The notes beneath the pieces are model-generated. The model saw only the letters and a program-made list of their open reading frames with translations. It had not been told where the DNA came from and ran no database searches. The translations under genes and the position numbers were made by a program. A stretch of 64,000 bases of DNA, from contig NZ_CP040751.1 of NCBI RefSeq assembly GCF_008001235.1, forward strand, positions 124,001 to 188,000. The letters run 5' to 3'. The number at the start of each line of letters is the position of its first letter. Positions within the stretch are counted from its first letter, which is position 1. The DNA comes from Salidesulfovibrio onnuriiensis (GTDB lineage Bacteria; Desulfobacterota; Desulfovibrionia; Desulfovibrionales; Desulfovibrionaceae). Of this stretch, positions 24,623 through 44,838 are shown piece by piece.

Positions 24623-24715
24623 ATCCTCTCCTTGCAGTGATTCCGGGGATTCTGATGCAAACAATGATCTTTTTCAAGAGCGGCGGGCATATTCACGCCC
24701 ATGACCGCCCATAAG

Positions 24716-24752: not shown

Positions 24753-24771
24753 CTGGTACCGAGGAAGAGAC
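24753..24771 (-). repeat. displaced tRNA-Leu 3' end (predicted attachment site, left end of island)
   Basis: CTGGTACCGAGGAAGAGAC matches the 3' end of the intact tRNA-Leu gene at 44751-44769 at 18 of 19 positions, the single change being A for G. It includes the CCA end. No other part of a tRNA is present here. Confidence 0.7.
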
Positions 24772-26943: not shown

Positions 26944-26958
26944 ACCTTTTTCCGCCTC

Positions 26959-27846: not shown

Positions 27847-27855
27847 GTTCGTCTC

Positions 27856-30321
27856 CTAGAAGGTGTAGGAAGCGCCGGCCCAAAATTGGCGACCTGCAGC
27901 CCTGTTGCTTTCCTTGTCGATAATGGCCGTATCGTCAAAAACGTTGTCAATGGTCAGATCAAGCTGAAGCGCTTGGCTGGCGTTACTCCACAGCTCATAA
28001 CCAAACTTCCAGTCCCATATGACGGAAGGGGAGAGCGTGGCGTCCTCGTACTTGAGATATTTCTCGCCGCCGACAACCTGGGTTCCTTTGGCAAAGATGG
28101 TCTCCACCTCCCCCAGATAACGGGTTACATTGGTGAACTTCAGTTTGTCGAAGAACGTGCCTTCGTAAGTGAATGTTCCCACCCAGGGACGGTTGAAATT
28201 GCTGGCCGGCATCTGGCTTCTATCGATGAGCGAGCCGTTGTAATACACCTTGTCGTAGTTGATGGACGAGGAAGATCCGTCGTTGTTGGAGTCGGAGAAA
28301 TCGTTGAAGTTGGTCTCCTGATCCGAATGAGTGATCCCCAGAGAGAAGCGATGATCGTCGATGGTCTTTGCCAGCTTGAGCGTATACCCCCAGTATTCCG
28401 TCTCGCCGTCGTTGGTCAGTTTGTACTTCCAAATGCCGGATATGTTCTTCATGCTTGTCGCAAATTGTTCATGTCCCTTGCGTTTCACCCACTCCAAGGA
28501 CGCATCCAACCCAAAGAGGTCGCCTCGGACTCCGAACATCAATTCGTCAGAATACGGAGTGTTCAGTCCGTCGAGGGAATAGTCGTATTGGCTGGATGTC
28601 GTTGCCGTCCAGCTGGACAAGTTGCCCGCCCCGTCAATGGTGCGGGAATAACGCTGCAACGGATTACGCACCCGAAGGGCATAGGAAAGAAGGTTTGCGC
28701 CATAATATCGGTTCGCGCCCGCGGTGAACACGAGATCCTGATCCCCCAACACGTCCAGTTCCGCAGTGAATCGAGGAGCCAAGTTGATGTTTTCCAACAA
28801 ATCATCGTATTCCAAACGCGCCCCTGGACGAACCCTGAGCCGCTTCCAGGACAACTCGTCCTGCATGTAGTAGGCAAAGGAGTTGTACCCAGTGCTGCGT
28901 TTGCCCTTTGCCTGCATACTTTTCAAGCGGGTGTACTGCTCGCCGGCAATGACGCCTCCTTCACCGTTGTCGATCACATTGCCCGACGTTGTGGGGCTGT
29001 AGTAGGTGACGAAATCGTTTTCCTGATCGTAGACCCCGCTTACGTTTTCATAGACAAATCCCGAATTGAGCACATTGCTGGAGGACCACATTGCGACGGG
29101 CACGGAAACGTAATCCATCGCCATGGTCAGATCGCGCTGGCGGGTATAGGTGGATCCGTAACCGCCTTCATTGGCATTTGTGGAATGACTGCCCCACTGG
29201 GTGGAGGTGGTGCCGCCGCCCTTGGTCCAGGTAATATGTTCCGTGGCCTCGGAATCGCGTCGCGTTTCAGTCTCGGAAAAGGCGGTGGTCAAAGTGAAAG
29301 TGCCTGGTTCCAGTTCATTTTCGTATTTCAACGTCACTTTCCGCGTGGGTTTCTCCAGCTCATAATCCGAGTCCTTGGTATCCGCTACGAACTTGGTGGA
29401 TGAATAGGTGTCGAAAAGCACCGAGATATCGAGAGAACTCTTGTCGGTAACATCCAGGGAAAGCTTACCGAACACATCATTTTTCGTGCTGTACTGGTTC
29501 CGCCGGTCTTCCATATAGAACAGGGGCACCGTGGAGTGCTTCAAACTGTAGGACAGAATGGCCCCCGCGGTATCCGACATGGGGAGATCCATATAGGCCG
29601 AAACGTTGTGTTTGCTAAATTTCGGATTGCCCTGGCTATTCGTTGTGGATCCTTCAAATTCCTCCCGATCCGCCGGCCGCTGATTGGCCCACGTGTCCCG
29701 GGTGTGCTGATAAGATATCTTACCGCCGAACTCGCTCGCAGGTTTTCGGGTCTCGGCATCCACCATACCGCCCACGAACTGACCGTATTGGGCCGGAACG
29801 TTACTGCTGTAAACCGTAATGGACTCCAGCAATTCAGTATCGATATAAGCGTTTTCCGCCTCACCGTAGACAAGACCGTTGGCCGGGGTCTCATCAATAC
29901 CATAAGGATCAATGCGGTTGTTGTTTGAGACCCCGTCAATTGAGAAATTGTTCTCGTAGTATTTACCGCCGGAAATGGAGATCTTCGGTGCAAGGATGCT
30001 GCCGCCGTTCAACGAGGATCGAGAACTGTCATCGAACTGGACGTTGGGCATAACCTTGAGGGCCTCGGTCACGCTGCCCGTTGAGTTGGGCATGCGTTCC
30101 AAGCTCTGTCGATCCAGGGCGGCCTTACCGCTTTCATCCCTTTCCTCATCCACGTCCACCGCTTCGAGACGAACCACATTTTCCGTTGCGTTATCATTCC
30201 TGCCCACCTCGTTGACGGCTTCTTCCGAAGCATATGCCGGAGAAAAGGCAAGCCCTCCCAAAAGGCACAGTATCAGCCATGATGTTTTGTTTTTCCTGTT
30301 GAAAAAACCAAATAAACTCAT
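27856..30321 (-). CDS. TonB-dependent outer membrane receptor
   Basis: The 821-residue receptor starts with a signal peptide (hydrophobic residues about 14-30, cut near SPAYASEE). A plug domain follows to about residue 190, with LERMPNSTGSVTEALKVMPNV and the SIDGVSNNNRIDPYG region, then a beta-barrel that ends in a terminal Phe (GASYTF), the usual outer membrane protein signature. A GGGGGGA ribosome site precedes the ATG, and a Fur-box-like sequence lies 22 nt upstream of the start. The ligand is unknown. The adjacent M16 protease and peptide importer argue for a protein or peptide ligand carrying iron rather than a small siderophore. Confidence 0.93.
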   Translation of the reverse strand: MSLFGFFNRKNKTSWLILCLLGGLAFSPAYASEEAVNEVGRNDNATENVVRLEAVDVDEERDESGKAALDRQSLERMPNSTGSVTEALKVMPNVQFDDSSRSSLNGGSILAPKISISGGKYYENNFSIDGVSNNNRIDPYGIDETPANGLVYGEAENAYIDTELLESITVYSSNVPAQYGQFVGGMVDAETRKPASEFGGKISYQHTRDTWANQRPADREEFEGSTTNSQGNPKFSKHNVSAYMDLPMSDTAGAILSYSLKHSTVPLFYMEDRRNQYSTKNDVFGKLSLDVTDKSSLDISVLFDTYSSTKFVADTKDSDYELEKPTRKVTLKYENELEPGTFTLTTAFSETETRRDSEATEHITWTKGGGTTSTQWGSHSTNANEGGYGSTYTRQRDLTMAMDYVSVPVAMWSSSNVLNSGFVYENVSGVYDQENDFVTYYSPTTSGNVIDNGEGGVIAGEQYTRLKSMQAKGKRSTGYNSFAYYMQDELSWKRLRVRPGARLEYDDLLENINLAPRFTAELDVLGDQDLVFTAGANRYYGANLLSYALRVRNPLQRYSRTIDGAGNLSSWTATTSSQYDYSLDGLNTPYSDELMFGVRGDLFGLDASLEWVKRKGHEQFATSMKNISGIWKYKLTNDGETEYWGYTLKLAKTIDDHRFSLGITHSDQETNFNDFSDSNNDGSSSSINYDKVYYNGSLIDRSQMPASNFNRPWVGTFTYEGTFFDKLKFTNVTRYLGEVETIFAKGTQVVGGEKYLKYEDATLSPSVIWDWKFGYELWSNASQALQLDLTIDNVFDDTAIIDKESNRAAGRQFWAGASYTF

Positions 30322-30342
30322 CCCATCCCCCCTTCATTAGAT

Positions 30343-30361
30343 GAAGATGATAATCATCCTC
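30343..30361. promoter_or_regulatory. Fur-box-like operator upstream of the TonB receptor
   Basis: By eye this 19-mer matches the Fur consensus GATAATGATAATCATTATC at 15 of 19 positions, including the whole central TGATAATCA. It lies between the protease stop and the receptor start. Confidence 0.6.
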
Positions 30362-30429
30362 ATCATAAACAGACAACAAATCAAAAGGATGAAAACATCC
30401 CTCCATTGGGCACCAATAACATGTATAAA

Positions 30430-31491
30430 TTATTGCAAATCCGGCGGAAGAACCGTGAATACCGCAGCCTTTTCAGGTACAAAATACCTTTCGGCCAAAT
30501 CACTCAGCTGTGCAGCCTCGGCTTCACTGATAATCTGTGAAGCCTTTGCCGCCCGCATGAACGCATCCCTATGGCCACTTGCGACCTGAAGGAGTTGATA
30601 TCGCCAGAACCCGAGACGGCTGGCCAGCTTCACACGCAGACCCAAGGCCTGCTTTCTGGCGCGGTCAAGCTCTTCGTCGATGACACCATTGCTGGCCAAA
30701 TCGACTAAAATGGCGCGTACGGCCTGCTCCACCAGTTCATGCTTTCCGGCCTCGGTTTCCACCTGTACGGCCATGTAACCATAGCCTGGAAACTCTTTTG
30801 GTTGCATAAGATATGCTACTGGCGAGTAGGCAGCCCCAAGCGTTTCACGCAAAGTTAGGCGCAAGCGATCGGCCACGATACGCCGCAGCAGGCCCAGGAG
30901 GATTTCATTCTCCTGGGCTTCGTCCCCTGCAACAGACACGGGCAGCGCCATAATCACACCGGCTTGGGGAAGCGCCCTATTAATACGCGCCATGGAGCGC
31001 TCTCCGGCCGGAAAAGCCAGATGCATCGATTCCCGCGAAGTTCTGGTCCGTTGCTGCATTGTTCCGAAGAAACGACCCACCGCCTTTTCCACGATTCCCG
31101 GAACAAAATCCCCAGCCACGCACAAGGTCACCGGCCCCTGTTTGAACGCTGTGGCCACAAACCCCCGAACTTCCTCCAGGCTGAATCCTTTTACCAGCGA
31201 ATAGTCCAAGTCTGCCAAATACCCGGTTCCGCCAGCAAGAAACCGCCGTCCTTCAGAGGCAAACATCCCCGCGCATGTACCCGCCTGGCGCACACCCTCG
31301 TTTTTGAGCATTGCCAAAGCGGAGCTATATTCATTTTCACGCACCACAGGATCCAACAACGCCGTACGCAGCAGGTGCATGGCCAGGTCCAGGTCGCTGT
31401 GCAGGCAGGTAACGGTAAGGACCATCCCTGAGGGTCTCATCTGCCAAGAAATATCCACCTTGCGGCCCGCCAGCACCTGCGACTGTTGCAA
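30430..31491 (-). CDS. C-terminal half of an M16 metalloprotease (continues the 31497 frame after a -1 shift)
   Basis: This 353-residue frame has no credible start: its first possible codon is TTG, inside a continuous M16 sequence. It carries the second and inactive halves of an M16 protease, including the RxxL-type region LRLTLRETLGAAYSPVAYL and the C-terminal ELDRARKQ segment. Read upstream, the frame continues as GIGRLTRLQQSQVLAGRK, which joins smoothly to the 31497 product after a one-base step back at the G6 run. The whole protein would be 966 residues, close to PqqL-type proteases of about 930. Either a programmed frameshift, a real disruption or a homopolymer sequencing error separates the two frames. 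Confidence 0.85.
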   Translation of the reverse strand: MQQSQVLAGRKVDISWQMRPSGMVLTVTCLHSDLDLAMHLLRTALLDPVVRENEYSSALAMLKNEGVRQAGTCAGMFASEGRRFLAGGTGYLADLDYSLVKGFSLEEVRGFVATAFKQGPVTLCVAGDFVPGIVEKAVGRFFGTMQQRTRTSRESMHLAFPAGERSMARINRALPQAGVIMALPVSVAGDEAQENEILLGLLRRIVADRLRLTLRETLGAAYSPVAYLMQPKEFPGYGYMAVQVETEAGKHELVEQAVRAILVDLASNGVIDEELDRARKQALGLRVKLASRLGFWRYQLLQVASGHRDAFMRAAKASQIISEAEAAQLSDLAERYFVPEKAAVFTVLPPDLQ

Positions 31492-31496
31492 ACGAG

Positions 31497-33329
31497 TCAG
31501 CCTGCCAATCCCCCCTGATTCAATACGTCCAGGGAGAACCTCGCCAAGGCCTGCCCGCGGTCATCCATGGAAACGGTACCAGGCCCGAATTCGAGACTTA
31601 TTTGCACACGGTTTTTCTCCACGTCCGTAGGTTTCATGAGCAGGGACACTCCGTTGGCGAAATCAATGCGCTGGTAGGTGTATGGCGCTGCCTGAGACGT
31701 CTCGTGCAAACGTTCCAGCACATTGCCCGGCTTTCCAGGAACAGTCAGATACGGGAACTTCACTTCGGCCTCGCCCTTCCAGGGTTTCACCTCCGCCCTT
31801 GCCGCCTTGTTCCAGGCGGTCAAAATGGCCATCTCGGGTGACACATCAGCCTTCAAATCCACGCCGGAGAGGCTGACTATGCGATTGCCGGCCCCCCAGG
31901 CCGATCGGAAAGACTTGTTCACATCATCGAGAACAACCGTGGCCAGCATTGGAGTGAACACGTCCAAGGTTTGCTGCGGGGACTGGTAAACCCGATCCTG
32001 GTTCATGCAGAGCACGATTTCATTGGCAATATCAGAATTATCGCGAGACAACTCGCGCTTAACTCCCTGTTTGAAATAATTGGCAAAAAACTTCTTGGCC
32101 CGCATCAGTTCTGGCTTGGTGAATCCAAACTCAAGAGCACGACGAAGCTCGTTCTCCAGAAGGGACAAGGACTCCTCCCAGCGCCCCTTGCGGGGCATGG
32201 CCATCATCCGGGCGTCGGGCATCTGGCCAAAGGCTTCGGTAAAATATGTAAAGCTCTTAAGCATGGGGGAATCTTCCCGGTTGGCCAAGGTCATCAGCCG
32301 AGCCTGCATCATGTGCGCGGCCAGCTGCTCATCAAGCATGGCGCGCTGCACGGCCAAGGAATCCCGCTCGTGCCTGCGCGGGTGGATGGCTTCAACCACG
32401 AGCATGCCCGTGGTACCAGAACGACGGTCGTAGTAGGCGTTCACGCCTTTGAGGCGCATATCGCCCCATGCAGGGATAGCGGGGCGTTCGGCCCGAGGGC
32501 CCGCTTTTGCGAAAACCTTTTTGACCAAGCCTTCCACGGTGCGCACGTCAAAGTCTCCCACGGCAATCAACACGGCCAGTTCCGGCCGGTACCAAGCGTC
32601 ATAGAAACCGCGCAGGATGTTTGCGTCCGCACCTTTAATAACTTCTTCCGTTCCAATGGTTGGGTACACAAACCGGGAACCAGAGAGGAGGAAGCGCACC
32701 CGGCGTTGCGACGCCCGAAAGCTTTCCGAATCCCGTGCGGTTTTTTCCTTGAGTATAACGCCGCGCTCGCCGTCCACCTCTTCCTCAAGGAGGAGCGCAC
32801 CATCAAGAAAATCCTCAAGTACAACAAAACCGCGTTCAACAACCTTCATGTCTGTGGTGGGCACTTGAAGCTTGTATACGGTCTCCTGCATGGCGGTATG
32901 GGCATTGGCGTCCGCGCCGAAACTCATGCCGATGGACTGGAAATATTTAATGAGTTCGCCAGGCGGGAAATTGCGGGAGCCGTTGAAAACCATGTGTTCC
33001 ATGAAATGGGCGATCCCAGCTTGGGAATCAGTTTCCATGAGGGATCCAACCTGCATGTTCAAGTAAAGTGAGGCCCTTTCCTTGGGGGACCCATGATGCA
33101 GCAAAACATAGCGAAGCCCGTTTTCCAGCCGCCCGAAGACGGCATCCTGATGCGGCTCAAGAGTGGAGTGCTCATGGGGCCAGGAACCATCCAGCCACCA
33201 CCCTTCGGACTTCGACCCCGCCTGAGCGCAGTTCGTTCCCGGAAACAAGAAAGCCCCTGTAAAAAACAGAAGCAATGCGTACAAAAATGCAATGGACGAC
33301 ACCGAGAACCGATGTGATGCAGTAGGCAT
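31497..33329 (-). CDS. periplasmic M16 metalloprotease, PqqL/FusC-like, N-terminal frame
   Basis: The 610-residue frame begins with a signal peptide (hydrophobic residues about 11-30). The zinc-binding HxxEH motif is HFMEH at residues 108-112, and the third ligand Glu188 lies in VDGERGVI at the usual spacing, so the active half is intact. It ends in DVLNQGGLAG and a TGA only three codons past a G6 run. The rest of the protease follows in the -1 frame (see 30430). M16 proteases of the PqqL/FusC type degrade imported iron proteins or peptides in the periplasm. It is divergent from the yejA-like gene and has a Fur-box-like site in the shared promoter region. Confidence 0.88.
   Translation of the reverse strand: MPTASHRFSVSSIAFLYALLLFFTGAFLFPGTNCAQAGSKSEGWWLDGSWPHEHSTLEPHQDAVFGRLENGLRYVLLHHGSPKERASLYLNMQVGSLMETDSQAGIAHFMEHMVFNGSRNFPPGELIKYFQSIGMSFGADANAHTAMQETVYKLQVPTTDMKVVERGFVVLEDFLDGALLLEEEVDGERGVILKEKTARDSESFRASQRRVRFLLSGSRFVYPTIGTEEVIKGADANILRGFYDAWYRPELAVLIAVGDFDVRTVEGLVKKVFAKAGPRAERPAIPAWGDMRLKGVNAYYDRRSGTTGMLVVEAIHPRRHERDSLAVQRAMLDEQLAAHMMQARLMTLANREDSPMLKSFTYFTEAFGQMPDARMMAMPRKGRWEESLSLLENELRRALEFGFTKPELMRAKKFFANYFKQGVKRELSRDNSDIANEIVLCMNQDRVYQSPQQTLDVFTPMLATVVLDDVNKSFRSAWGAGNRIVSLSGVDLKADVSPEMAILTAWNKAARAEVKPWKGEAEVKFPYLTVPGKPGNVLERLHETSQAAPYTYQRIDFANGVSLLMKPTDVEKNRVQISLEFGPGTVSMDDRGQALARFSLDVLNQGGLAG
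31509..31515 (-). other. candidate -1 ribosomal frameshift site (G GGG GGA)
   Basis: On the minus strand the zero-frame codons read CAG GGG GGA TTG GCA GGC TGA. The heptamer fits X XXY YYZ exactly, and slipping back one base gives the reading frame of the C-terminal M16 half with no residue lost. No clear downstream pseudoknot was worked out. Confidence 0.5.
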
Positions 33330-33619
33330 GAGCGAGCCCTATCCCCTTCGAAAATTGAAATTGCAGCCAGACCTAACTCGAATAAAAACAAACGGAATTC
33401 GAGAGTGGGCACGAACCGTTCGCAGGAAGGGGGGTTACAATCATACACTCATCCTGTCAATAACGATTTTCATTTTCATAATCATTATAGTATGGGAAGG
33501 CCCGCAAACTGGAGATTTTATATCCAGATCAGCACTTGACGGTGATTCTCAATATCGACTATGACCTCCCCTTATTGAGTTGCAACACTGAACGCACAAA
33601 ACATTTATTTGGACCGAAC
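33330..33619. promoter_or_regulatory. divergent promoter region between the M16 protease and the peptide importer
   Basis: This 290-bp stretch without genes holds the Fur-box-like site at 33471-33489. It has a plus-strand -10-like TATAGT at 33486-33491 overlapping that site, and a minus-strand TTGACA at 33455-33460 with a poor -10. Repressor binding would plausibly block both directions. Confidence 0.5.
33471..33489. promoter_or_regulatory. second Fur-box-like operator
   Basis: This 19-mer matches the Fur consensus at 14 of 19 positions, with an unbroken ATAATCATTAT core. It lies 142 nt before the protease start and 131 nt before the importer operon. Confidence 0.55.
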
Positions 33620-35452
33620 ATGCTTTTTCGTCGAACACTTTCCACTTTCCTCCTACTGCTCGCCTTGTGCTCTCAGGCGTCTGCACAACCAGTAACCGTC
33701 CTGTCTCTGGACAGCACCGAACAAAATGCCGCACTGACGGACCACCTGCCCTACGTTGAGCCCGACGCCCCCAAAGGGGGGGGCATACGCCTCTCGGCCA
33801 CAGGGAGCTTTGATTCCTTCAACGCGTACATCCCGAGAGGAATACCGGCAGCGGGGACCCCCTTGGTAACCGCAACCCTGACCGCCTCGTCACGCGACAA
33901 CCCGTACGTACAGCACCCATATGTGGCCCAGAGCTTCGAGGTGGGGCCGAATAACGAATGGATTGAATTTCACCTCAATGCCCGCGCGAAATTTCACGAC
34001 GGTATCCCGGTCACCGCCGACGATGTTGTTTTCACTTTCAATACGATCATGGCCGAGGGAAGTCCCCGCTATAAACAATACTACAAAAGCGTGAAACGGG
34101 CTGAAAAAACCGGTCCCCGTTCAGTAAAATTCGTATTCTCGGAAAAGAACAACCGTGAACTGCCGGTCATTATCAGCCAACTGCCGGTGCTGCCCGAACA
34201 CTGGTGGAAAAACCGCGACTTCTCGAAACCGGGTCTGGAGCCACCGCTGGGATGCGGGCCTTACAAAATCAAGGATTTCCATCCTGGATACAGCATTGAT
34301 TACGAACGGGTAAAAGGCTGGTGGGGAGAACACTTGGCCGTGAACAAGGGGCGGTACAATTTCGACGCCATCCGCTACGACTACTACCGCGACCGCACTG
34401 TGGCGGGCGAGGCGTTCCGGTCCGGCGAGTTTGATTATCTCATAGAGACAACAGCCAAAAACTGGATCAACGACTACAAGGGTCCCGCTTTCGACAAGGA
34501 TCTTATCCGGCGCCTGGAACTTCGCCACTCACGCAATGCCGGCATGTCCGGATTCTTTTTCAATACCCGCCGCTCCCTGTTCCAAGACCGACGGGTCCGT
34601 CAGGCTTTGGCGCTGGTTTTCGATTTCGAATGGACCAACGCGGCCCTGTTTCACAACCAGTACAAACGCTGCGACAGCTTTTTCTCCAACTCGGACCTGT
34701 CCGCCACAGGCCTGCCGGACGAGCGAGAACAAGCCATCTTGGAACCGTGGAAAAACGAACTCTCCACCGAAATTTTCACCATTGCATTCATCCCGCCCCA
34801 CGGAGACGGTTCCGGCCGCATACGCCAGCGCATAGGCACGGCCATGGAACTGCTCAATCAGGCCGGATGGACCCTCAGGGACGGAGTACTGCGCAACAAG
34901 GACGGGAAGCCCTTCGCCTTTGAACTGCTCTTGCGCTCCGGCAGCCTGGAGCGGGTGGCCCTGCCCTTCCGGCACAATCTTCAACGGATCGGCATCCACA
35001 TGGATATCGCCCTGGCCGACACCTCCCGCTACATCCGGCGCACGCGCGACCACGACTACGACATGATATACACCACGGTGCCCCAGTCGGACCATCCCGG
35101 CAACGAGCAGCGTAACTACTGGACTTCCAAAACAGTTCATACCCTGGGATCGAGCAACTGGGCAGGTGTCACCTCTCCCGTTGTGGATGCCCTGGTCGAC
35201 CGCATCATCGCGTCTGCGGACCGCGACGAGCTGATGGCCAACACACGCGCCCTGGACCGGGTTCTGCTCTGGGGCAACTACGTAATCCCGGGCTGGTACA
35301 CGCCCGTTGACAGGGTGGCTTACTGGGACAAATTCGGCATGCCCAAAGCCAAACCCAAACGGGGGGTGGACCTGTTCTCATGGTGGGTGGACAAAAAAAA
35401 GGAACAGCGCATCGCGGAAAGCGGATTCCGTAGCGAAGAGGCCAAACCATGA
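33620..35452 (+). CDS. periplasmic peptide-binding protein, YejA-like
   Basis: The 610-residue protein has a signal peptide ([22 protein letters not shown]) and belongs to the family 5 extracellular solute-binding proteins, in the large YejA branch: [25 protein letters not shown] and the later [25 protein letters not shown] segment are its hallmarks. YejA-type proteins bind peptides or peptide-like compounds such as microcin C. The ATG at 33620 was chosen because it gives the signal peptide; the open frame begins earlier at a TTG. The stop overlaps the permease ATG by 4 nt. It is the first gene of a long plus-strand operon running to 44297. Confidence 0.9.
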
Positions 35453-36546
35453 CCACCTATCTGCTGCGACGCCTGGCCCTTATGGTCCCCACCCTGCTGG
35501 GCATCATGGCCCTCAACTTCTTCATCATCCAGACCGCGCCCGGCGGCCCTGTGGACCAATTCATCGCCAAGCTTTCGGGCGAAGGTGACATGGTCATGGA
35601 ACGCATCACCGGTCAGGCGACCGAGGTAAGCGGAGGGCACGACAAGGGCGAAGGCGAGCCGTTCAACTCCCGTGATTTATCCCCGGAGTTGCTGCAGGAA
35701 ATACAGAAGCTCTACGGATTTGACAAACCACTCCTGGAACGTTTCGGCACCATGCTCAAGGACTACGCCACCTTCGACTTCGGGGACAGTTTTTTCAAGG
35801 GCCGTTCCGTGGTGGAACTCGTCAGGGAATCCCTGCCAGTCTCCATGTCCTTGGGAATCTGGAGCACGCTGATAATCTACCTTGTCTCCATCCCGCTAGG
35901 CATCCGCAAGGCAGTAAAACACGGCACGCGGTTCGACGCGGCCACAGGCATGGCCGTCATCGTAGCCAACGCCATCCCGGTCTTTTTGTTCGCCATCCTG
36001 CTCATTGTGCTCTTTGCCGGGGGCAGCTACTTCAAATGGTTCCCGCTTCGCGGCCTTGTCTCACCGGGCTTCGAGAGGCTCCCCCTAAGCGGCAAGATCG
36101 CCGACTACTTCATGCACCTGGCCCTGCCCATCGCGGCTATGGTCATCGGAGGGTTCGCCACCCTGACCATGCTGACCAAGAACTCCTTCCTGGACGAAAT
36201 CGGCAAACTCTACGTGGTGGCGGCACAGGCTAAAGGCCTCTCTGAAAAAAAGGTCCTCTACGGCCACATTTTCCGCAACGCCATGCTCATCGTCATCTCC
36301 GGTTTCCCCGCCGCATTCGTCAGCATGTTCTTTACCGGCTCGCTGTTGGTGGAGGTCATTTTCTCGCTTAACGGCATGGGGCTGCTCGGGTTCGAGGCGG
36401 CCATGCAGCGGGACTACCCGGTCATGTTCGCCACCCTGTACATCTTCACAACCATCGGGTTGGCCACCAAAATCATCAGCGATCTTACATACATATTCAT
36501 TGACCCGCGCATCGATTTCGAAAGCAGGGGGCCCCGACATGGCTAG
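35449..36546 (+). CDS. peptide ABC transporter permease, YejB-like
   Basis: The 365-residue inner membrane protein is a DppB/YejB-type permease: the N-terminal [19 protein letters not shown] helix, the long periplasmic insert after residue 45 typical of YejB, and the EAA loop region [21 protein letters not shown] that docks onto the ATPase. It overlaps yejA-like by 4 nt and the second permease by 8 nt, so stoichiometric coupled translation is likely. It forms half of the membrane channel for peptide import. Confidence 0.92.
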
Positions 36547-37567
36547 GCTTACCCCACTGACAAAACGACGGCTTCGCGCCTTCCGCACCTGTCGCCGGGG
36601 ATGGTGGTCGCTCCTGCTCTTCACCGCCCTTTTCGCGCTCTCGCTGGGTGCGGAGTTCATCGCCAATGACACCCCCCTGCTGGTGCGCTACAAGGGAGAC
36701 TTCTACACGCCGGTGCTCACAGACTATGCTGAAACCGTGTTCGGCGGAGACTTCGACACGCCCACCGACTACCGCGACCCGTACATGGCCAATAAAATAC
36801 AAGCCGAAGGCTGGATGTTCTGGCCGCCCATACGCTTTGCGGACGACACCATCGACTTCGACCTGCCTGCGCCCGCCCCCGCGCCGCCATCCCTGGCCCA
36901 CCCACTGGGAACGGACGACCAGGGCCGCGACCTGGTGGCCCGGATTCTCTATGGATTTCGCGTTTCCGTGTGTTTCGGCCTGCTGCTGACCCTTGTCAGC
37001 ACGGTGGCGGGCGTGATGGCCGGGGCCATTCAGGGCTATTATGGCGGACACATCGACATGATCGGCCAGCGCTTCATGGAAATCTGGTCCGGCCTGCCCG
37101 TGCTCTACCTGCTCATCATTCTGTCGGACATGTTCAAACCCGGCTTCTGGTGGTTGCTGGGCATCATGCTGCTCTTCAGCTGGATGGCCCTGGTAAACGT
37201 GGTCCGTACAGAATTCCTGCGCGGCCGCAACCTTGATTATGTGCGCGCGGCCAAGGCCATGGGCGTCCGCGACCGCAACATCATGTTCAGACACATCCTG
37301 CCCAACGCCATGGTGGCGACGCTGACCTTCCTGCCCTTTGTGCTCAACGGGGCAATAACCACCCTGACCTCCCTTGACTTCCTGGGCTTCGGCATGCCGC
37401 CGGGCTCACCCTCACTGGGGGAACTGCTGGCACAGGGCAAGGCAAATCTGCACGCCCCGTGGATCGGGCTTTCCGCATTCGTCGTGCTTTCCGTCACCCT
37501 GACAGTGCTCGTGTTCATCGGTGAAGCTGCCCGCGACGCACTCGACCCCAACAAAAACGCATCATGA
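36539..37567 (+). CDS. peptide ABC transporter permease, YejE-like
   Basis: The 342-residue permease of the DppC/YejE type begins at the ATG at 36539 ([15 protein letters not shown]) inside the end of the previous gene. The YejE hallmark is the long N-terminal periplasmic stretch containing [20 protein letters not shown]. Further on, [16 protein letters not shown] and the EAA loop [19 protein letters not shown] are clear. It pairs with the YejB-like permease; the stop overlaps the ATPase start by 4 nt. Confidence 0.92.
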
Positions 37568-39183
37568 CCGCACCACTACTGAACATACAGAATCTCTGCA
37601 TCGCCTTCGGCTCCAGGCCGGTGGTGAAAAACATTTGCCTGAGCGTCCGGCCGGGCGAAACCCTGGCGCTGGTGGGTGAATCCGGTTCGGGCAAATCCCT
37701 GACCGCCCGCGCGGCCATGGCCCTGCTGCCCCAGAAAGCGCAGATCACGGACGGTTCCATCACCCTGGGCGATACCGACATGTTACGCGCGAACGCAGCA
37801 AAGCTCTGCGCCCTGCGCGGCAACCGCGCGGCCATGATCTTTCAGGAGCCGCGCCCCAGTCTTAACCCGCTGCATACCGTGGAAAAACAAATCGGCGAGA
37901 CCCTGTTGCTCCATACAGGGCTCAAGGGCGGTGCTATGCGAAAACGCATCGTGGAATTGCTGGATCTCGTGGGCATCGACAATCCCCAAAAGCGCCTCAC
38001 GTCCTATCCCCATGAGTTGTCCGGTGGCCAATGCCAACGCATTATGATCGCATCAGCCTTGGCCGGCGAGCCGGACCTGCTCATTGCCGACGAGCCCACC
38101 ACGGCCCTGGACGTCACAGTACAGCGCCAGATTCTGGATCTCATTGTCGAGCTTTCCCGCAAGCTGAACATGGCCACCCTGCTCATCAGTCATGACCTGG
38201 GCCTGGTACGCCATTATGCACACAGGATCTGCGTCATGCAGGACGGCAAGATCGTGGAACAAGGTCCCACCGAGGAAGTCTTCGCCTCCCCGGCCAGCGA
38301 TGGCGCGAAACAGCTGCTCCAGGTCAGCCGGGGAATGATCCCCTCGCTACTGCCCGAAAAGAACGAAACACTTCTGGAAGTGGAGGATCTCAAAGTATGG
38401 TTTCCGATACAAAAAGGTCTGCTGCGCCGCACCAAGGATCACGTAAAAGCCGTGAACGGTGTGTCCCTAAAACTGAGCAGGGGCGAATGCCTGGGCATCG
38501 TGGGCGAGTCCGGTTCGGGCAAAACAACCCTGGGGCTTTCCGTACTGCGCATGCTACAGAGCACCGGAGCCGTCACCTTTGACGGGCTGCGCATCGACGG
38601 ACTCAAGGGCGAAAGACTGCGCTCCCTGCGCAAACGCATGCAGATGGTCTTCCAGGATCCGTTCGGTTCCCTCAGCCCGCGTATGAGCATTGAACAGATC
38701 GTGTCCGAAGGGCTGACCGCGCACCACACACTAAACAAGGCGGAACGCGACCGCAGGGTGGACGAGACTCTGACTGAAGTGGGCCTTTCCCCGGACATGC
38801 GCGACCGCTACCCCCACGAATTCTCAGGCGGCCAGCGCCAGCGGATAGCTATTGCCCGCGCCCTGATACTGCGGCCCCAGTTCATGGTGCTGGACGAGCC
38901 CACCTCGTCTCTGGACCGTAGCGTCCAGTTCCGCATCATGGGACTGCTGCGCGGGCTGCAGGTAAAGCACGGCCTGTCCTATCTCTTCATCACCCACGAT
39001 CTGCACCTTACACGGACCTTCTGCCACAGGGTGCTTGTCATGCGCGCAGGCCGCATCGTGGAAGCAGGCCCCACGCAGACCGTTTTCGATACACCCCGGG
39101 CAAACTACACCCAAACACTTCTTGACGCAGCAGACCTATCCGGTCCTGCCGCGTCCTCAACCGCAAAGGAATACATCTCATGA
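37564..39183 (+). CDS. peptide ABC transporter ATPase with two fused nucleotide-binding domains, YejF-like
   Basis: This 539-residue protein carries two complete ATPase halves. Each has Walker A (GESGSGKS, GESGSGKT), a signature motif (LSGGQ, FSGGQ) and Walker B with the catalytic Glu (LLIADEPTTALD, FMVLDEPTSSLD). The second half starts at about residue 265. YejF-type fusions energise peptide import with the YejA, YejB and YejE partners encoded just upstream. The stop overlaps the DUF3450 gene start by 4 nt, tying the importer to the TonB module in one message. Confidence 0.93.
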   Translation: MTAPLLNIQNLCIAFGSRPVVKNICLSVRPGETLALVGESGSGKSLTARAAMALLPQKAQITDGSITLGDTDMLRANAAKLCALRGNRAAMIFQEPRPSLNPLHTVEKQIGETLLLHTGLKGGAMRKRIVELLDLVGIDNPQKRLTSYPHELSGGQCQRIMIASALAGEPDLLIADEPTTALDVTVQRQILDLIVELSRKLNMATLLISHDLGLVRHYAHRICVMQDGKIVEQGPTEEVFASPASDGAKQLLQVSRGMIPSLLPEKNETLLEVEDLKVWFPIQKGLLRRTKDHVKAVNGVSLKLSRGECLGIVGESGSGKTTLGLSVLRMLQSTGAVTFDGLRIDGLKGERLRSLRKRMQMVFQDPFGSLSPRMSIEQIVSEGLTAHHTLNKAERDRRVDETLTEVGLSPDMRDRYPHEFSGGQRQRIAIARALILRPQFMVLDEPTSSLDRSVQFRIMGLLRGLQVKHGLSYLFITHDLHLTRTFCHRVLVMRAGRIVEAGPTQTVFDTPRANYTQTLLDAADLSGPAASSTAKEYIS

Positions 39184-39962
39184 ACCTGAAACGATTACGC
39201 ACACTCGGCAAGGCGGCAGCGCCGCTGTTTGCGGCCTGTCTGCTGCTGACAGCCCCGGCACCTGCCACGGCAGCTTCCCAAGACATGGCCCAAAAAATGG
39301 TGGATGACGCCATTGCAGCCGAAACCAGCGCCCAGAAGCAACAGACCCGTTGGAACGCCCAACGCGCCGCCATGCTGGAGGAAATCCGCCAGCTCAAAAG
39401 CGAGAACCTATGGCTCTCCTTCCAGGAAAAGAAATACTCCCGGTACGTCGGCTCCATTGAGGGTAAGATCGCGGAACTGCAACGCATCAAGGCCGAACTG
39501 GAACGCATGGAGCAGGAGCTCGAACCGCTTCTCTACAGCCTGGTGGACCGCCTTACCGACGCGGTGCAGACGGATCTGCCTTTCCTCAAACAGGAACGCA
39601 CCCGGCGCCTGGATTTCCTGCAGCGCACCCTGGACGACCACGAGCTTTCCAACGGTGAAAAGCTGCGTCGCATCCTGGAGGCTCTGGAAGTGGAAACCGC
39701 TTACGGCCGAAGCGCTGAGATGAGTGAGCAAACCATCCAGCTGGACGGCAAGCCCACCCAGGCCAGGGTTTTCCGGGCCGGGCGCCTGGGCCTGTACTGC
39801 CTGACCCCGGACCAGGCCACCGCAGGCCGGTATGAACGCAAGGCAGCCGGTTTCGTGACCATGGACTCGGAATTCGTGCGCCCCCTCACCGAGTTGCAGA
39901 CCATGATCGAGCGAAAACGCTACACCAATTTCATCTACCTGCCCGTGAAGGAGGTCCGCTGA
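39180..39962 (+). CDS. DUF3450 periplasmic coiled-coil protein of the TonB2-type module
   Basis: The 260-residue protein has a signal peptide (residues about 1-31, cut near ATAAS). A long heptad-rich coiled coil follows (about 40-120: EIRQLKSENLWLSFQEKKYSRYVGS and the IAELQRIKAELERMEQEL region), then a C-terminal domain ending TNFIYLPVKEVR. This matches DUF3450, which in Vibrio-type TonB2 loci precedes ttpC. It is probably periplasmic and helps the TtpC/ExbB/TonB complex; the exact role is not established. Overlaps on both sides are 4 nt and 1 nt. Confidence 0.85.
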   Translation: MNLKRLRTLGKAAAPLFAACLLLTAPAPATAASQDMAQKMVDDAIAAETSAQKQQTRWNAQRAAMLEEIRQLKSENLWLSFQEKKYSRYVGSIEGKIAELQRIKAELERMEQELEPLLYSLVDRLTDAVQTDLPFLKQERTRRLDFLQRTLDDHELSNGEKLRRILEALEVETAYGRSAEMSEQTIQLDGKPTQARVFRAGRLGLYCLTPDQATAGRYERKAAGFVTMDSEFVRPLTELQTMIERKRYTNFIYLPVKEVR

Positions 39963-41383
39963 TGCGTTTTCTCTGCGCCATCATCACCCTGCTCCTCCTG
40001 AGCCTGCCCGCAGCGGCGGCCGAGGAGCAACAAGCCGCTCCCTCCCCGCAGGAATCCACATGGAACACAACCGTGGGCGAAGTGGAAAAGCTACGCGACC
40101 ATACCAAAGCCGAGGCCGCAACCACCCTGCGGAACATCACTCAGGAACGGCAGGAAATGGAACGAGAACTCAAGGCACTGCGCGCCGAAAAACAAAGCCG
40201 CAGCAACAACTACGAATCGTTGCTCAAACGCTTTGAAGAGCTGACCCAGGAAAAGCAGGCCTTGGATACGGAACTGGACAGCCAGCAGGACTCCATGCGC
40301 CTCATCGAGGGCGCGGTACGGACCTCGGCCAAACAGCTTCGCAAGCGCGCCTTGAACAGCCCGGCCACCGCAGAGCATCCTGGCCGCCTGGGCGAGTTGG
40401 ACCGGCTGCTGGACGCTGACCGTTTCCCCGGCCTGGAATCCATTCAGGTCCTCACGGGCATATGGTTCCGCGAGATGGCCGCATCGGGCGAGGTGCGCAC
40501 GGGCAAGAACCTGTGCGTGGCCCCGGACGGCGGAAGCAGGGAGGGAACCGTCACGCGGATGGGTACCCTGGGTGCGTTCTTCACGGACAACGATGGTCAT
40601 ACCGCCTTTCTGCGATCCAGCGCAGAAGGACGCCTGGAAATCGTGTCTGGCGACTTTGCCGGTGCCGTGGACGCGGCGGAATCATTTGCTACGGGCAAGG
40701 TTGGGGCAGCGCCCCTGGACTTTTCCGGCGGGGAAGTCTTCAAACGCTTTGGCGACGAATCAAGCTTCATGGTCTCGATCCTCAGCGGCGGCGCGCTGGT
40801 CTGGCCCATCCTGCTCGTGGGGCTCATCGGTTTCGCCCTGGCCTCAGAACGTTTCTTCACCCTGAGCCGTATCCGCACCTGCCCGGATTGCAAGATGGGC
40901 ACGGCCCTGGAATGGGCCCTCAAAGGCGACCTGAAACGATGCGCCTCCTGCCTGGGCGACAAGGGCAACACCCCCACCTGCCGAGTGCTCAAACACGTGA
41001 TTCTGCACTCGGGCGGCACCCTGGTGAGCATGGAAAAGGGGCTGCAGGAATCCATCCTGCAGGAAGTCCCCAAGCTGGAACGCTTCCTGCCCACCATCAA
41101 CATCCTGGCCGCCGTGGCCCCACTGCTGGGCCTGCTGGGAACCGTCACCGGCATGATCGGCACCTTCCAGGTCATCACCATCTTCGGCACCGGCGACGCG
41201 CGCATGATGTCCGGCGGCATTTCCGAGGCATTGATCACCACCCAGCTCGGCCTGGCCGTGGCCGTGCCCCTGACCCTTATGCACCACTTCCTGGAACGAA
41301 AGGTAGACCGCATGGTTTCGGACATGGAGGAAAAGGGCACCACCCTGGTGGCGCGAATCATCGCCTCGGAAAAGGGAGAATAA
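39962..41383 (+). CDS. ttpC: TtpC-like long ExbB/MotA/TolQ-family proton channel protein
   Basis: The 473-residue protein has a signal peptide, a periplasmic coiled coil (about 40-110) and a globular stretch, then an ExbB/TolQ core from about residue 268 with three membrane helices (the first at VWPILLVGLIGFALASERF; the second and third around AAVAPLLGLLGTVTGMIGTF and TTQLGLAVAVPLTLMHHF). The long periplasmic N-terminus before an ExbB core is the defining feature of TtpC, the extra subunit needed by TonB2 systems in Vibrio. Gene order (DUF3450, TtpC, ExbB, ExbD, TonB, TPR) matches that system. Confidence 0.88.
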   Translation: MRFLCAIITLLLLSLPAAAAEEQQAAPSPQESTWNTTVGEVEKLRDHTKAEAATTLRNITQERQEMERELKALRAEKQSRSNNYESLLKRFEELTQEKQALDTELDSQQDSMRLIEGAVRTSAKQLRKRALNSPATAEHPGRLGELDRLLDADRFPGLESIQVLTGIWFREMAASGEVRTGKNLCVAPDGGSREGTVTRMGTLGAFFTDNDGHTAFLRSSAEGRLEIVSGDFAGAVDAAESFATGKVGAAPLDFSGGEVFKRFGDESSFMVSILSGGALVWPILLVGLIGFALASERFFTLSRIRTCPDCKMGTALEWALKGDLKRCASCLGDKGNTPTCRVLKHVILHSGGTLVSMEKGLQESILQEVPKLERFLPTINILAAVAPLLGLLGTVTGMIGTFQVITIFGTGDARMMSGGISEALITTQLGLAVAVPLTLMHHFLERKVDRMVSDMEEKGTTLVARIIASEKGE

Positions 41384-41386
41384 CCC

Positions 41387-41968
41387 ATGCTCACGCAACT
41401 CATGAACCACCTGCGCGACGGGGGAACGGTCATGCTGCCCATCGGGCTGCTGGCCCTGGCCCTGTGGTGGCTGGTGTTTCTCAAGGCCCGCGAACTCTGG
41501 GACCTGATCAGCCGCAAGCGCACGCCCGAAGAAGTCCTGCACCAGGAGCAGGACGACTGGCAGAGCGCCATCGCCAGGGACTACCTGACGTCGCGCTCGG
41601 GCAGCGAGGAGCTTGACGTGGAGCTTTCCCGGGTGCTGGTGGACCGCTACGCCGGAGTGGCAGAAAAAGGCATCCCCACCATTCTTGTGCTGGCCGCAAC
41701 CGCACCGCTCCTTGGGCTGCTGGGCACGGTCACCGGCATGGTGGACACCTTCGAGGTCATCGCCCAGTTCGGCACGGGCAACGCCAAAGGGTTGGCCGCG
41801 GGTATCTCCCAGGCCCTGATCACCACCCAGAGCGGCCTGATAGTGGCAGTGCCGGGCATGGTGGTGGGCGGTCTGCTCTACCGCAGGGCCAGCAAGCTCA
41901 AGGCAAAAATGGAACTCTTTCTGGGCGGCGTGGAGCGCATCGCCGCAGGCAAGGAGGCACGCGCATGA
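41387..41968 (+). CDS. exbB: ExbB/TolQ-family proton channel subunit
   Basis: The 193-residue protein is the short ExbB of the module: a first helix at about 15-33 (MLPIGLLALALWWLVFLKA), a cytoplasmic loop, and the paired helices with the conserved AAATAPLLGLLGTVTGMVDTF and TTQSGLIVAVPGMV segments. Together with ExbD it uses proton-motive force to energise TonB. It lies 3 nt after ttpC, and its stop overlaps exbD by 4 nt. Confidence 0.93.
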   Translation: MLTQLMNHLRDGGTVMLPIGLLALALWWLVFLKARELWDLISRKRTPEEVLHQEQDDWQSAIARDYLTSRSGSEELDVELSRVLVDRYAGVAEKGIPTILVLAATAPLLGLLGTVTGMVDTFEVIAQFGTGNAKGLAAGISQALITTQSGLIVAVPGMVVGGLLYRRASKLKAKMELFLGGVERIAAGKEARA

Positions 41969-42378
41969 GCGCCTATTCCCCTTACCGCAAAAAACGCGAC
42001 TCGGGCACGGGCATCAACATGACCCCGCTCATAGACATGGTCTTCATTCTTCTCATCTTCTTCATCGTCACCACCAGTTTCGTGAAGGAGTCGGGCGTGG
42101 ATGTGGAACGCCCGGTGGCCAATTCTGCCGAACGCAAGGAAAACGTCAGCGTGGTGGTGGGCATCGACCCCACGGGCACCATCTGGCTGGACGGCAAAAG
42201 CATCGACATCCGATCCGTGCGGCCCTGGATGGAGCGTTTCGTGGCCGAGACACCCGAGGGCGTGGTCGTGGTGGCCGCCGACACCAAGGCAGAAAGCGGC
42301 ATTCTCATCAAGGTGCTGGACGCCTGCCGCGAGGCCGAGGTCAAGAACGTGAGCGTGGCAGCGAGGAAACCTCAATGA
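41965..42378 (+). CDS. exbD: ExbD/TolR-family biopolymer transport protein
   Basis: The 137-residue protein has one membrane helix carrying the conserved Asp24 in INMTPLIDMVFILLIFF (Asp25 in E. coli ExbD), which is needed for proton use, and a periplasmic domain ending in the VLDACREAEVKNVSVA segment. Overlaps with exbB and tonB are 4 nt on each side. Confidence 0.95.
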   Translation: MSAYSPYRKKRDSGTGINMTPLIDMVFILLIFFIVTTSFVKESGVDVERPVANSAERKENVSVVVGIDPTGTIWLDGKSIDIRSVRPWMERFVAETPEGVVVVAADTKAESGILIKVLDACREAEVKNVSVAARKPQ

Positions 42379-43067
42379 GCTCAAAGGCCATGAAACGACA
42401 CGCGGTATCCGGCATGGCCGCGCTGGCGGCTACCGTGGGCCTGTTTATGCTGCCGCTTCTCATGTCCAGGCTACAGGCCGCCACCCAGCCGCCGTCCGAA
42501 TACGGTTCGGTAAGCCTGTCCAGCACACCCGCCCCGAACCGGGATACGGAAAGCGACACACGGGACGCCCCGGACCAGACCGAGCCGGAGAGGGTACAGG
42601 AGTTTGCGCCGCCCACCCAGGACATGAGTTTCACCCCGCAGCAGCCCACAGCCCAGCTGGACCTGCCCGACGTGGAGTTCACCATCAATCCTCAGCTTAC
42701 CGCGGGCATGGCCCTGCCCGCCCCGGCCGCACTTTCGGCCATGGCCGCTCCCGCACCGGCCGCGCTGTCCGGAGGTTCCCTGAGTATCGGCGAACTGGAC
42801 AATACCATTGCCCCGATTTTCAGTCCTGCGCCGAGATACCCGCGCGACGCCAAGCGACGCCGCATCGAAACTACGGTGCAGGCCAAACTGCACGTAAACG
42901 AACAGGGCAACGTCACCAAAGTGGAGGTGATCAAGGGTCCCTATTCGGACCTCTTCGCACCTCAGCTGCGCAGGGACCTGATGCGCTGGCGCTTCAAGCC
43001 CGGCACCAAGGACGGAAAGCGGGTCAAATGGCACGCCATCGTTCCCATCAACTTCAACCTGGACTAA
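42375..43067 (+). CDS. tonB: TonB protein
   Basis: The 230-residue protein has an N-terminal membrane anchor (about 13-33), a Pro- and Ala-rich periplasmic spacer (about 35-135) and a C-terminal TonB domain with PRYPRDAKRRRIETTVQAKL, VNEQGNVTKVEVIKG and a final RWRFKPGTKDGKRV strand. It would transmit energy to the receptor encoded at 27856. The spacer is short compared with E. coli TonB (239 residues total) but similar to TonB2-type proteins. The anchor lacks the usual SHLS-like His motif, as far as I can see. Confidence 0.9.
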   Translation: MSSKAMKRHAVSGMAALAATVGLFMLPLLMSRLQAATQPPSEYGSVSLSSTPAPNRDTESDTRDAPDQTEPERVQEFAPPTQDMSFTPQQPTAQLDLPDVEFTINPQLTAGMALPAPAALSAMAAPAPAALSGGSLSIGELDNTIAPIFSPAPRYPRDAKRRRIETTVQAKLHVNEQGNVTKVEVIKGPYSDLFAPQLRRDLMRWRFKPGTKDGKRVKWHAIVPINFNLD

Positions 43068-43070
43068 GCC

Positions 43071-44297
43071 ATGCGTTGTTTCCCCACAGCCCTCGCCCTG
43101 TGGCTCCTGCTCATCCTGTCCGCGCCCGTAACGGTTTCGGCAAACGACATGGCTCGGCCCATGACCGAACAGACCCGGCTTCGACTTTCCAAGGCGCATA
43201 AATGCATAAAAATGGACAAACCAGAATGCGCCCGCCAGATTCTGAGCAGATACATGGAAACCGCATCGCGGCCCCACCCCTATGGCGTGGTGCTCTACGG
43301 CAGCCTGCTCCTGGAACAGCATGAGCTGGCCGAGGCCGCCAGCGTGTTTGAACGGGGCTACGAGAATTATCCAAAATGCAGAGAGATCGTGCACAACCTG
43401 GCCGTGGTACGCTACGAGCAGGAAAGATACAGCGAGGCGGGCGAGATGTTCCTGAAAAGCTGCGCCCTGGCCGAGAGGCCCACGCCGGAAATCCGCTACC
43501 AGGGGGCCGTGTGTTTTTACCAGGCGGAACTCTACAAGCAGGCACACGAGGCTGTCAGCCCACTGCTGAACCTCAAGCAGGTCAAAAAGAACTGGGTGCG
43601 CCTGGCGGCCCACTGCCTGATCCAGCTCAAGGACTGGCCACGGGCCGAAAAAACACTGGTCCGATTCCTGAAGGTCTCCCCGGCCGAACACGAATACTGG
43701 AAACTCCTTGCCAACGTGCGCATTGAGCGCAAGCAGTACACGCGCGCCGCAGCAGCCCTGGAGATTGCCTATCGCATAAAGCCGCCAAGCGAGGAGGAAC
43801 GCCGCAGTCTTTCCCAGCTCTACCTCTATGTGGACGCGCCCCTGCTTGCGGCCCATGCCCTTAAGGACGATTTCAAGGGAACGCCGCCGCCCAAGGTCTG
43901 CGACCAGTTGGCACGGGCCTATCTCACGGCCGGACGAATTGAACCGGCGTTGGGAATGATAGACCTGGCAATCCAGCAGGAAAACACGGCCGAACGCTGG
44001 CTTACCAAAGGCAAGATCCTATACGGCAAACGGCGTTACGCAGAAGCCGAGGGCGCACTGAAGCAGGCGGTCAAGCTCAAGGAAAAAAGTGGATTGGCCC
44101 ATTTTCTCATGGGCATGAGCCTGTGGGAGCAACAGAACTGGCAAGAATCCAGAGACTGGTTCAAACGGACAGGGCAGTTCAAACGCTATGCGAAACGCGC
44201 GGACAGGGCCATCAAGTCTATCGACAGCATGATTGAGAGTGAACGCCAGAGCCGTCTGGCAACAATTGATGGCGAAGACCCACACCAGCTCCCCTGA
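43071..44297 (+). CDS. TPR-repeat periplasmic protein of the TonB2-type module
   Basis: The 408-residue protein has a signal peptide (about 1-24) and around nine tetratricopeptide-like helical repeats through the rest, for example AEAASVFERGYENYPK, EAGEMFLKSCALAER, RAAAALEIAYRIKPP and AEGALKQAVKLKEKSG. A TPR gene follows tonB in Vibrio TonB2 clusters too, which supports the call. It is likely periplasmic and structural; its partner is unknown. It is the last gene of the plus-strand operon, 3 nt after tonB. Confidence 0.85.
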   Translation: MRCFPTALALWLLLILSAPVTVSANDMARPMTEQTRLRLSKAHKCIKMDKPECARQILSRYMETASRPHPYGVVLYGSLLLEQHELAEAASVFERGYENYPKCREIVHNLAVVRYEQERYSEAGEMFLKSCALAERPTPEIRYQGAVCFYQAELYKQAHEAVSPLLNLKQVKKNWVRLAAHCLIQLKDWPRAEKTLVRFLKVSPAEHEYWKLLANVRIERKQYTRAAAALEIAYRIKPPSEEERRSLSQLYLYVDAPLLAAHALKDDFKGTPPPKVCDQLARAYLTAGRIEPALGMIDLAIQQENTAERWLTKGKILYGKRRYAEAEGALKQAVKLKEKSGLAHFLMGMSLWEQQNWQESRDWFKRTGQFKRYAKRADRAIKSIDSMIESERQSRLATIDGEDPHQLP

Positions 44298-44741: not shown

Positions 44742-44751
44742 GATTTTATTC

Positions 44752-44838
44752 TGGTACCGAGGGAGAGACTCGAACTCTCAAGGCCTTGCGACCGGCGGAT
44801 TTTGAATCCGCTGCGTCTACCAATTCCGCCACCCCGGC
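44752..44838 (-). tRNA. tRNA-Leu (anticodon CAA)
   Basis: This is an 87-nt gene with an encoded CCA end. The acceptor GCCGGGG pairs with CCTCGGT using wobbles; the D-arm has GGTAGACGC; the anticodon stem GCGGA/TCCGC holds the loop TTCAAAA with CAA; there is a long class II variable arm; and the T-arm is GAGAGTTCGAGTCTCTC. It lies 48 nt downstream of the 44886 gene. Its last 19 nt are repeated at 24753, marking the island attachment site. Confidence 0.96.

Follow-up and report, generated by a model that had tools for sequence, protein, structure and literature searches.

A tRNA-bordered island of Salidesulfovibrio onnuriiensis as a probable Fus-type protein-import system with a Yej-like importer, a DUF4857 trio and its own TonB module

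In a window of 64 kilobases (kb) from Salidesulfovibrio onnuriiensis (the whole analysed stretch of 64,000 nucleotides, positions 124,001 to 188,000 of contig NZ_CP040751.1) an island spanning approximately 24753-44769 brings together a TonB-dependent receptor, an M16 protease, a YejABEF-like importer, a TonB energy module and an ATP-binding cassette (ABC) trio that includes a DUF4857 protein. According to our analysis it is probably an enlarged Fus-type system, which would import a small, likely iron-bearing protein, degrade it and take in the pieces. What we observe is this gene content, a receptor of the FusA family, a linkage preserved through gene rearrangement, a fusion of YejF with TonB in related bacteria, conserved Fur-type sites and a repeat of a transfer RNA (tRNA) end at the borders. 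An earlier note on this DNA had listed receptor, protease, importer and energy module, and every gene it named is present within 27856-44297; it overlooked the trio (25049-27846) and the broken frame of the M16 gene. With the ABC ATPase, a membrane protein of 223 amino acids and the DUF4857 gene added, the unit reaches further left, to 25049. The leftward arm reads M16 (in two pieces), receptor, ABC ATPase, 223-residue membrane protein and DUF4857, and the rightward arm YejA-, YejB-, YejE- and YejF-like proteins, DUF3450, TtpC-like protein, ExbB, ExbD, TonB and TPR protein:

25049..26278, minus strand: DUF4857 protein (PF16149), 409 amino acids, hydrophobic near both ends by eye
26272..26943, minus strand: membrane protein of 223 amino acids between the ATPase and DUF4857 genes, no Pfam match
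26959..27846, minus strand: ABC ATPase of the DUF4857 trio, ABC-2/ABCA-like
27856..30321, minus strand: FusA-family TonB-dependent receptor, 821 amino acids, Plug domain PF07715
30430..31491, minus strand: M16 protease, C-terminal part, after the frameshift (PF05193)
31497..33329, minus strand: M16 protease, N-terminal part (PF00675, PF05193), HxxEH site, signal-like start by eye
33620..35452, plus strand: YejA-like solute-binding protein, 610 amino acids (PF00496; YejA 8fsr in the PDB, E=3e-144)
35449..36546, plus strand: YejB-like permease (PF00528)
36539..37567, plus strand, start set at ATG: YejE-like permease (PF00528)
37564..39183, plus strand: YejF-like double ATPase, two ABC_tran stretches
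39180..39962, plus strand: DUF3450 protein, TtpB-like (PF11932, 226 bits)
39962..41383, plus strand: TtpC-like protein, a DUF3450-like part plus MotA/ExbB (Pfam)
41387..41968, plus strand: ExbB (PF01618)
41965..42378, plus strand: ExbD (PF02472)
42375..43067, plus strand: TonB (PF03544, TonB_C)
43071..44297, plus strand: TPR protein, TtpD-like (TPR families)

It is the receptor that most likely makes the island a Fus-type protein-import system. Searched against all PDB sequences, a profile built from four orthologues matches FusA (4zgv) at 4e-115 and 6ofr at 3e-65, both near full length, and no other distinct PDB sequence at E<=0.01; the window receptor used as a single query agrees (1e-93 and 8e-56, respectively). 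We take 6ofr to be Escherichia coli YddB/PqqU; the two papers checked name neither 6ofr nor 6ofs in their main text. The accession 4zgv is confirmed as the ferredoxin receptor FusA in a part of PMC5095587, and passages of PMC6793856 describe the members of the FusA/YddB group, to which our receptor belongs, as receptors that putatively import proteins and have a large binding site on the outside, a FusC/PqqL-type M16 protease being linked in 12/24 receptor clusters. Such a linked protease is found here as well. A receptor of this family would place the island among the Fus-type protein-import systems, a kind published in 2016-2019, and the proposal that it captures a protein or peptide is thereby well supported.

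The predicted co-occurrence of receptor, M16, YejABEF and TonB genes was borne out across genomes. A survey of 297 genomes of the order with the receptor profile (E<=1e-40) gave 24 with a match, 13 in the family of the window and 11 in another family, f4. Receptor, M16, trio, YejABEF and TonB genes stand together in all 12 same-family loci read, which come from five genera and include the window itself (a thirteenth, G218, was excluded, its receptor being cut by a contig end). Divergent arms as in the window are the arrangement of G000, G021, G025, G028, G223 and G226; a second order, that of G111, G172, G062, G094, G119 and G130, is M16, ATPase, permease, DUF4857, receptor, YejABEF and TonB genes. 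Since the set remains intact through this change of gene order, a chance neighbourhood was rejected. Within the genus, M16 orthologues with 62-71% identity occur in 3/35 relatives, and each of the three has the complete set.

The idea that any generic FusA-like receptor would bring these partners was rejected too, as M16 and YejABEF accompany the receptor in 0/4 loci of family f4 and in 0/8 loci of other families. The four f4 loci, read from 4 of the 11 receptor-bearing genomes, have no partner genes. The other eight come from a phylum sample of 395 genomes, 12 of which match the receptor profile (the window's genome, G062, G094, G335 and these eight); in these eight the 14-20 kb read (30 kb in G612; two of the stretches end early at contig ends) contain no M16, trio or YejABEF, though a TonB-like match lies nearby in three and YejF is matched through an ATPase alone in two. 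The fourth named genome, G335, has receptor, trio and TonB2 genes, and the part of its locus that was read matches neither M16 nor Yej. Likewise rejected was the idea that any M16 gene near a receptor would look the same: L037 and L038 (32% identity), the nearest named among the best 80 matches, lack other island genes by tblastn, the 10 open reading frames (ORFs) scanned around their M16 genes being unrelated or without match, and a search for the receptor, run with no positive control, found it in 0/5 genomes (L037, L038, L040, L045, L079). Two side observations belong to these loci. FusA-like receptors of f4 (L153 10598-13564, L161 11723-14692) lie beside an opposite-strand Reg_prop/Y_Y_Y/GGDEF sensor gene, which hints at a second FusA-like group that lacks the partners, and in G335 a protein of 1060 amino acids with a lipoprotein-like start by eye and no Pfam match (L165 2139-5321) precedes the receptor, trio and TonB2 genes.

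The importer has the YejABEF composition, with a YejA-type binding protein, two permeases and one double ATPase. In all four loci of genus g15 its ATPase and TonB form one open frame with no internal stop, of 862 amino acids in G062, 866 in G094, 853 in G119 and 863 in G130. The fusion frames lie at:

L158 1245-3833
L157 17108-19708
L159 2603-5194
L155 3807-6368

Each fusion carries two ABC_tran stretches and a TonB_C domain (Pfam, 64-71 bits), separated by a hydrophobic segment (Kyte-Doolittle 1.6-1.95 over 19 residues; the same measure gives 1.96 for the window TonB), a layout that would fit a cytoplasmic ATPase, a single membrane span and a periplasmic TonB end. ExbB and ExbD adjoin the fusion in G062, G094 and G119 and in G130 sit past the M16 gene. 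As G062 and G094 are near-identical in RpoB, the four loci amount to about three independent looks. Searched against plasmid records with tblastn, the C-terminal 351 amino acids of the fusion gave one partial match. Because one protein holds YejF and TonB, the importer appears to be tied to energisation of the receptor, and we regard the fusion as strong evidence that the two work together.

The YejA-like protein also matches Methylocystis MbnE in the PDB (5icq, 1e-122), and MbnE binds methanobactin. This match, and the PepSY_TM, FeoB and DUF4198 genes which adjoin DUF4857 trios elsewhere, would speak for a receptor whose ligand is a small, peptide-like chelator of iron (a siderophore or a metal-binding peptide), which M16 and Yej would then process and import. 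We find it unlikely: the receptor falls in the FusA/YddB group, as delimited in passages of PMC6793856, and has no other PDB receptor match at the threshold given above, a protease of about 980 amino acids suits a polypeptide, and no siderophore synthesis gene was found among the Pfam matches of the island proteins.

The protease itself is whole in all 11 relatives read, a single frame of 955-1006 amino acids, and in the window it is two ORFs in different frames. A profile built from three whole relatives matches the M16 peptidase 9ldy (1e-74), PqqL 6ofs (6e-66) and 6b03 (2e-31) in the PDB, the last being presumably FusC; the same two papers do not name 6b03 or 6brs in their main text either. 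Against the sister species G021, the ratio of non-synonymous to synonymous substitution (dN/dS) is 0.110 before the break and 0.116 after it, with dS of about 1.6, near saturation. Ratios so low and so alike on both sides suggest that the break is recent or an error of sequencing or assembly. The two ORFs, set beside the whole gene of the relatives, could also mean that the frameshift is real and the island is decaying or inactive in this genome; we hold this to be decidedly improbable, for the ratios just given speak against it (within the limit set by near-saturated dS), and the remaining island genes align almost full length with those of relatives.

Iron may be the signal to which the putative import system responds. 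We compared 19-mers of the plus strand of the whole 64-kb window with the Fur consensus and took significance from 300 base shuffles. The sites are:

30340..30367: Fur-type site or sites in the receptor promoter, up to 15/19
33459..33489: Fur-type sites on the M16 side of the divergent promoter, 14/19
33538..33556: Fur-type site on the YejA side, 13/19 (its counterpart in G021 has 14/19)

All six 19-mers of the window that reach at least 14/19 fall in the first two of these ranges, which is above chance. The same two intergenic regions carry sites in G021, G025, G028, G226 and G223, and over two regions in each of six genomes the shuffle p is <= 0.013 in 11/12, the remaining one, the M16-YejA region of G223, giving 0.067. 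Four FUR-family genes are present in the genome. At the level of motifs, Fur-type operators are found at the promoters, and it is at this level, with sites conserved in five relatives, that the Fur linkage proposed earlier holds. It could be argued that the system simply feeds on protein for amino acids, the peptides being nutrient and Fur control incidental, and Yej, as a peptide importer, would indeed take in the fragments. To us it is the least likely of the alternatives considered, since both intergenic regions carry Fur-type sites that have counterparts in the five relatives, and since DUF4857 genes are strongly iron-regulated in Bacteroides thetaiotaomicron, as reported in a part of PMC10434189.

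The energy module of this probable protein importer is of the TonB2 kind. Its order, DUF3450-TtpC-ExbB-ExbD-TonB-TPR, recurs in 8/12 complete same-family loci from four genera; the earlier expectation of a TonB2-type module alongside the other genes was correct in so far as TonB genes are present in 12/12 loci, and too broad in that only these eight are of TonB2 type. The TtpB2-TtpC2-ExbB2-ExbD2-TonB2-TtpD2 system of Vibrio vulnificus has the same six gene kinds, with DUF3450 first and TPR last, and serves siderophore uptake according to a passage of PMC6957404, whereas the module here stands beside one FusA-type receptor.

The DUF4857 trio completes the unit. The DUF4857 frame (25049-26329) matches PF16149 at 252.5 bits, and the 223-residue membrane protein shows 27-78% identity in a 14-row alignment; profiles of both (14 rows for DUF4857) have no match in the PDB at E<=1. 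In the ATPase the Walker B Asp is followed by Asp in 15/15 aligned sequences, the usual residue at this place being glutamate; its variant signature motif, SCGQ, is a further peculiarity. DUF4857 is present in 12/395 genomes of the phylum sample. In G466 the neighbours of the trio are FeoB, DUF4198 and a P-type ATPase, in G451 they are DUF4198, PepSY_TM, a receptor and ExbB/ExbD-like matches, and in G453 it adjoins a TonB2 module; plasmid records gave no match to its ATPase at 1e-50 or to DUF4857 at 1e-5. A related arrangement is the BT3625-BT3633 locus of B. thetaiotaomicron, where, as a passage of PMC10434189 has it, DUF4857, a hypothetical protein and an ABC ATPase lie near a TonB-dependent receptor, and iron depletion raises BT3625 (DUF4857) 65-fold, BT3626 37-fold, BT3627 (ATPase) 40-fold and the receptor BT3633 112-fold; PepSY_TM, fimbrillin and DUF4876 genes stand there in place of the M16 and Yej genes. 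Going by the DUF4857 name and the layout of the genes rather than by sequence comparison, these may be the same trio. Its conserved linkage in our loci gives an iron-linked ABC unit a concrete setting.

The earlier note regarded a route from receptor to cytoplasm in a single unit as new, and in this it was mostly mistaken. The fusABCD operon of Pectobacterium is a published receptor-protease-TonB-ABC operon with such a proposed route, in which FusA is the ferredoxin-binding receptor, FusB draws the ferredoxin in, FusC cleaves it and the ABC transporter FusD is the proposed importer of the cluster (PMC5095587, in part); passage of the free cluster through FusD is proposed in sections of PMC13253070 as well, and the fus system is further covered in parts of PMC7593965. 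Fus-like clusters with varied partners occur across Proteobacteria, as passages of PMC6793856 (Grinter 2019) describe, and a Vibrio plasmid has receptor, M16, SbmA, ExbB, ExbD and TonB genes in one cluster. With fusABCD and with the fus-like operon on plasmid pPAT9B03 of Pantoea sp. At-9b the island shares a cluster that unites a FusA-family receptor, an M16 protease, TonB and an ABC transporter of the inner membrane; YejABEF, a complete TonB2 module and the DUF4857 trio set it apart. In Pantoea the FusD position is taken by a single polypeptide, an ABC protein of SbmA/BacA type, which matches our loci in ATPase domains only, apart from a weak longer match outside the G028 island. No one-piece FusD transporter was found in our loci, and for this reason we do not class the island as a fusABCD operon, even though it has a TonB homologue (TonB_C, 42375-43067). 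E. coli yddA-yddB(pqqU)-pqqL has the receptor and M16 homologues; the passage of PMC5095587 that describes the yddA operon calls YddA a FusD homologue and names no Yej, trio or TonB genes. Plasmid pTHAF190c_b of Vibrio sp. THAF190c (L209) unites a receptor, M16, ExbB, ExbD, TonB and a protein of peptide-transporter type, and differs by an SbmA that has no ATPase and by FhuF; it has no Yej or DUF4857 match at 1e-5, and its SbmA has no match in our loci at 1e-5. The main text of PMC6793856 contains no mention of Yej, ABC, ExbB or Desulfo, and its figures and supplementary tables could list such loci. In the literature, mostly outside subscription journals, we found no paper that joins YejABEF with TonB-dependent and M16, nor one that joins Desulfovibrio, TonB-dependent and M16 with Fur or with FusA/ferredoxin; a single paper brings up PqqL together with YejA, and its subject is vesicle proteins. 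The island differs from the known Fus kind in its Yej importer, DUF4857 trio and TonB2 module.

This difference bears on what crosses the inner membrane in Fus-type systems, where a free cluster has been proposed to pass after FusC cuts ferredoxin (PMC5095587 and PMC13253070, parts of both). BacA and YejABEF both admit phazolicin (PMC10128002, in part), and SbmA and YejABEF both admit corramycin (a passage of PMC10099666). SbmA/BacA and YejABEF thus share peptide substrates, and the swap of one for the other suggests, on the simplest reading, that the slot needs a peptide importer and that what passes the inner membrane is peptide rather than a free iron-sulfur cluster. With an unrelated peptide importer in the FusD slot, fused to TonB in one genus, the question of the cargo becomes directly testable, and the island offers a hint at its answer.

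From all this we infer a substrate, a direction of transport, a control by iron and a role for the trio, in the following scheme. Shortage of iron would relieve Fur, and the FusA-type receptor would capture from outside the cell a small protein that probably bears iron. Opening the receptor and drawing the protein in would then fall to the TonB module encoded in the island, after which the M16 protease, if made whole, would cut the protein in the periplasm and free the metal. YejABEF, which takes the slot held by the SbmA/BacA-type transporter in fus-like loci, would import the fragments or metal-bearing peptides, and the trio could have a further task at the inner membrane or in the periplasm, connected with the iron set free. 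A wider view, which we put forward tentatively and consider somewhat less probable than its opposite, is that the inner-membrane cargo of Fus-type systems is a peptide or iron-bearing peptide, for which three unlike importers (the fused SbmA/BacA-ABC protein, SbmA alone and YejABEF) fill one slot, that the g15 fusion makes one machine of the outer and inner membrane steps, and that the trio handles the freed iron or cluster, the whole being a complete iron-protein pathway.

Several points weigh against the picture of an enlarged Fus-type system. With the FusA-type receptor of Pantoea our receptor shares only 29% identity, so the substrate need not be ferredoxin, and the FusB-position TonB of Pantoea has no tblastn match in our loci at 1e-5. 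The YejF-like protein has its best match among the NCBIfam families listed in YejF, at 667 bits, below the curated cut-off of 834, for which reason we call it Yej-like, by analogy and from the similarity of YejA. In G071, G084 and G466 the stretches read contain the trio but match neither receptor nor TonB, and the genomes of the first two, which belong to the window's own family, have no match to the receptor profile; a role for it linked to released iron is a guess. Finally, the broken M16 frame, if real, would deprive this genome of the processing step.

The island is bordered by a repeat of a tRNA 3' end:

24753..24771: left direct repeat, attL-like, 18/19 match to the tRNA-Leu 3' end
44752..44838, minus strand: tRNA-Leu(CAA), whose 3' end forms the right direct repeat (44751-44769)

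Elsewhere in the window every 20-mer differs from the tRNA end by more than 3 mismatches. The sister species G021 (RpoB 92.9%) has the same tRNA-DUF554 site with no island and its own island copy on another contig, and the island occupies different sites in related species. G021 sequence outside the tRNA end resembles the left flank of the window, 4/6 other relatives by eye resemble its right flank, and with these resemblances in conflict the original junction is not certain. The tRNA-Leu looks like a hot spot of integration; in G021 a C5 cytosine methylase and a short ORF occupy the site (L169 12889-14329). The window is free of integrase genes (the genome has five Phage_integrase matches, all outside it), and no mobile genes were seen among the eight flank ORFs scanned in G021, G025 and G028. 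Long-range transfer into the genus is unsupported, as the RpoB tree (19 genomes, FastTree) and the receptor tree agree in their main groupings. The description of the unit as mobile can be kept as far as the flanking tRNA-Leu repeat and the site free of the island in G021 go, and is weakened by the lack of an integrase in the window and by the concordant trees.

In 2-kb windows the guanine plus cytosine content is 0.53-0.57 in the left arm, 0.58-0.64 in most of the right arm and 0.58-0.66 outside the island. A large antisense ORF at 26362-29403 was dismissed as mechanical. Adjoining the island at 23567-24664 is a gene for an MscS-type channel, matched in 0/35 other genomes of the genus at E<=1e-60, and further out in the window (15795-19119) there is a glycyl-radical enzyme (PFL-like) with a neighbouring radical-SAM protein.

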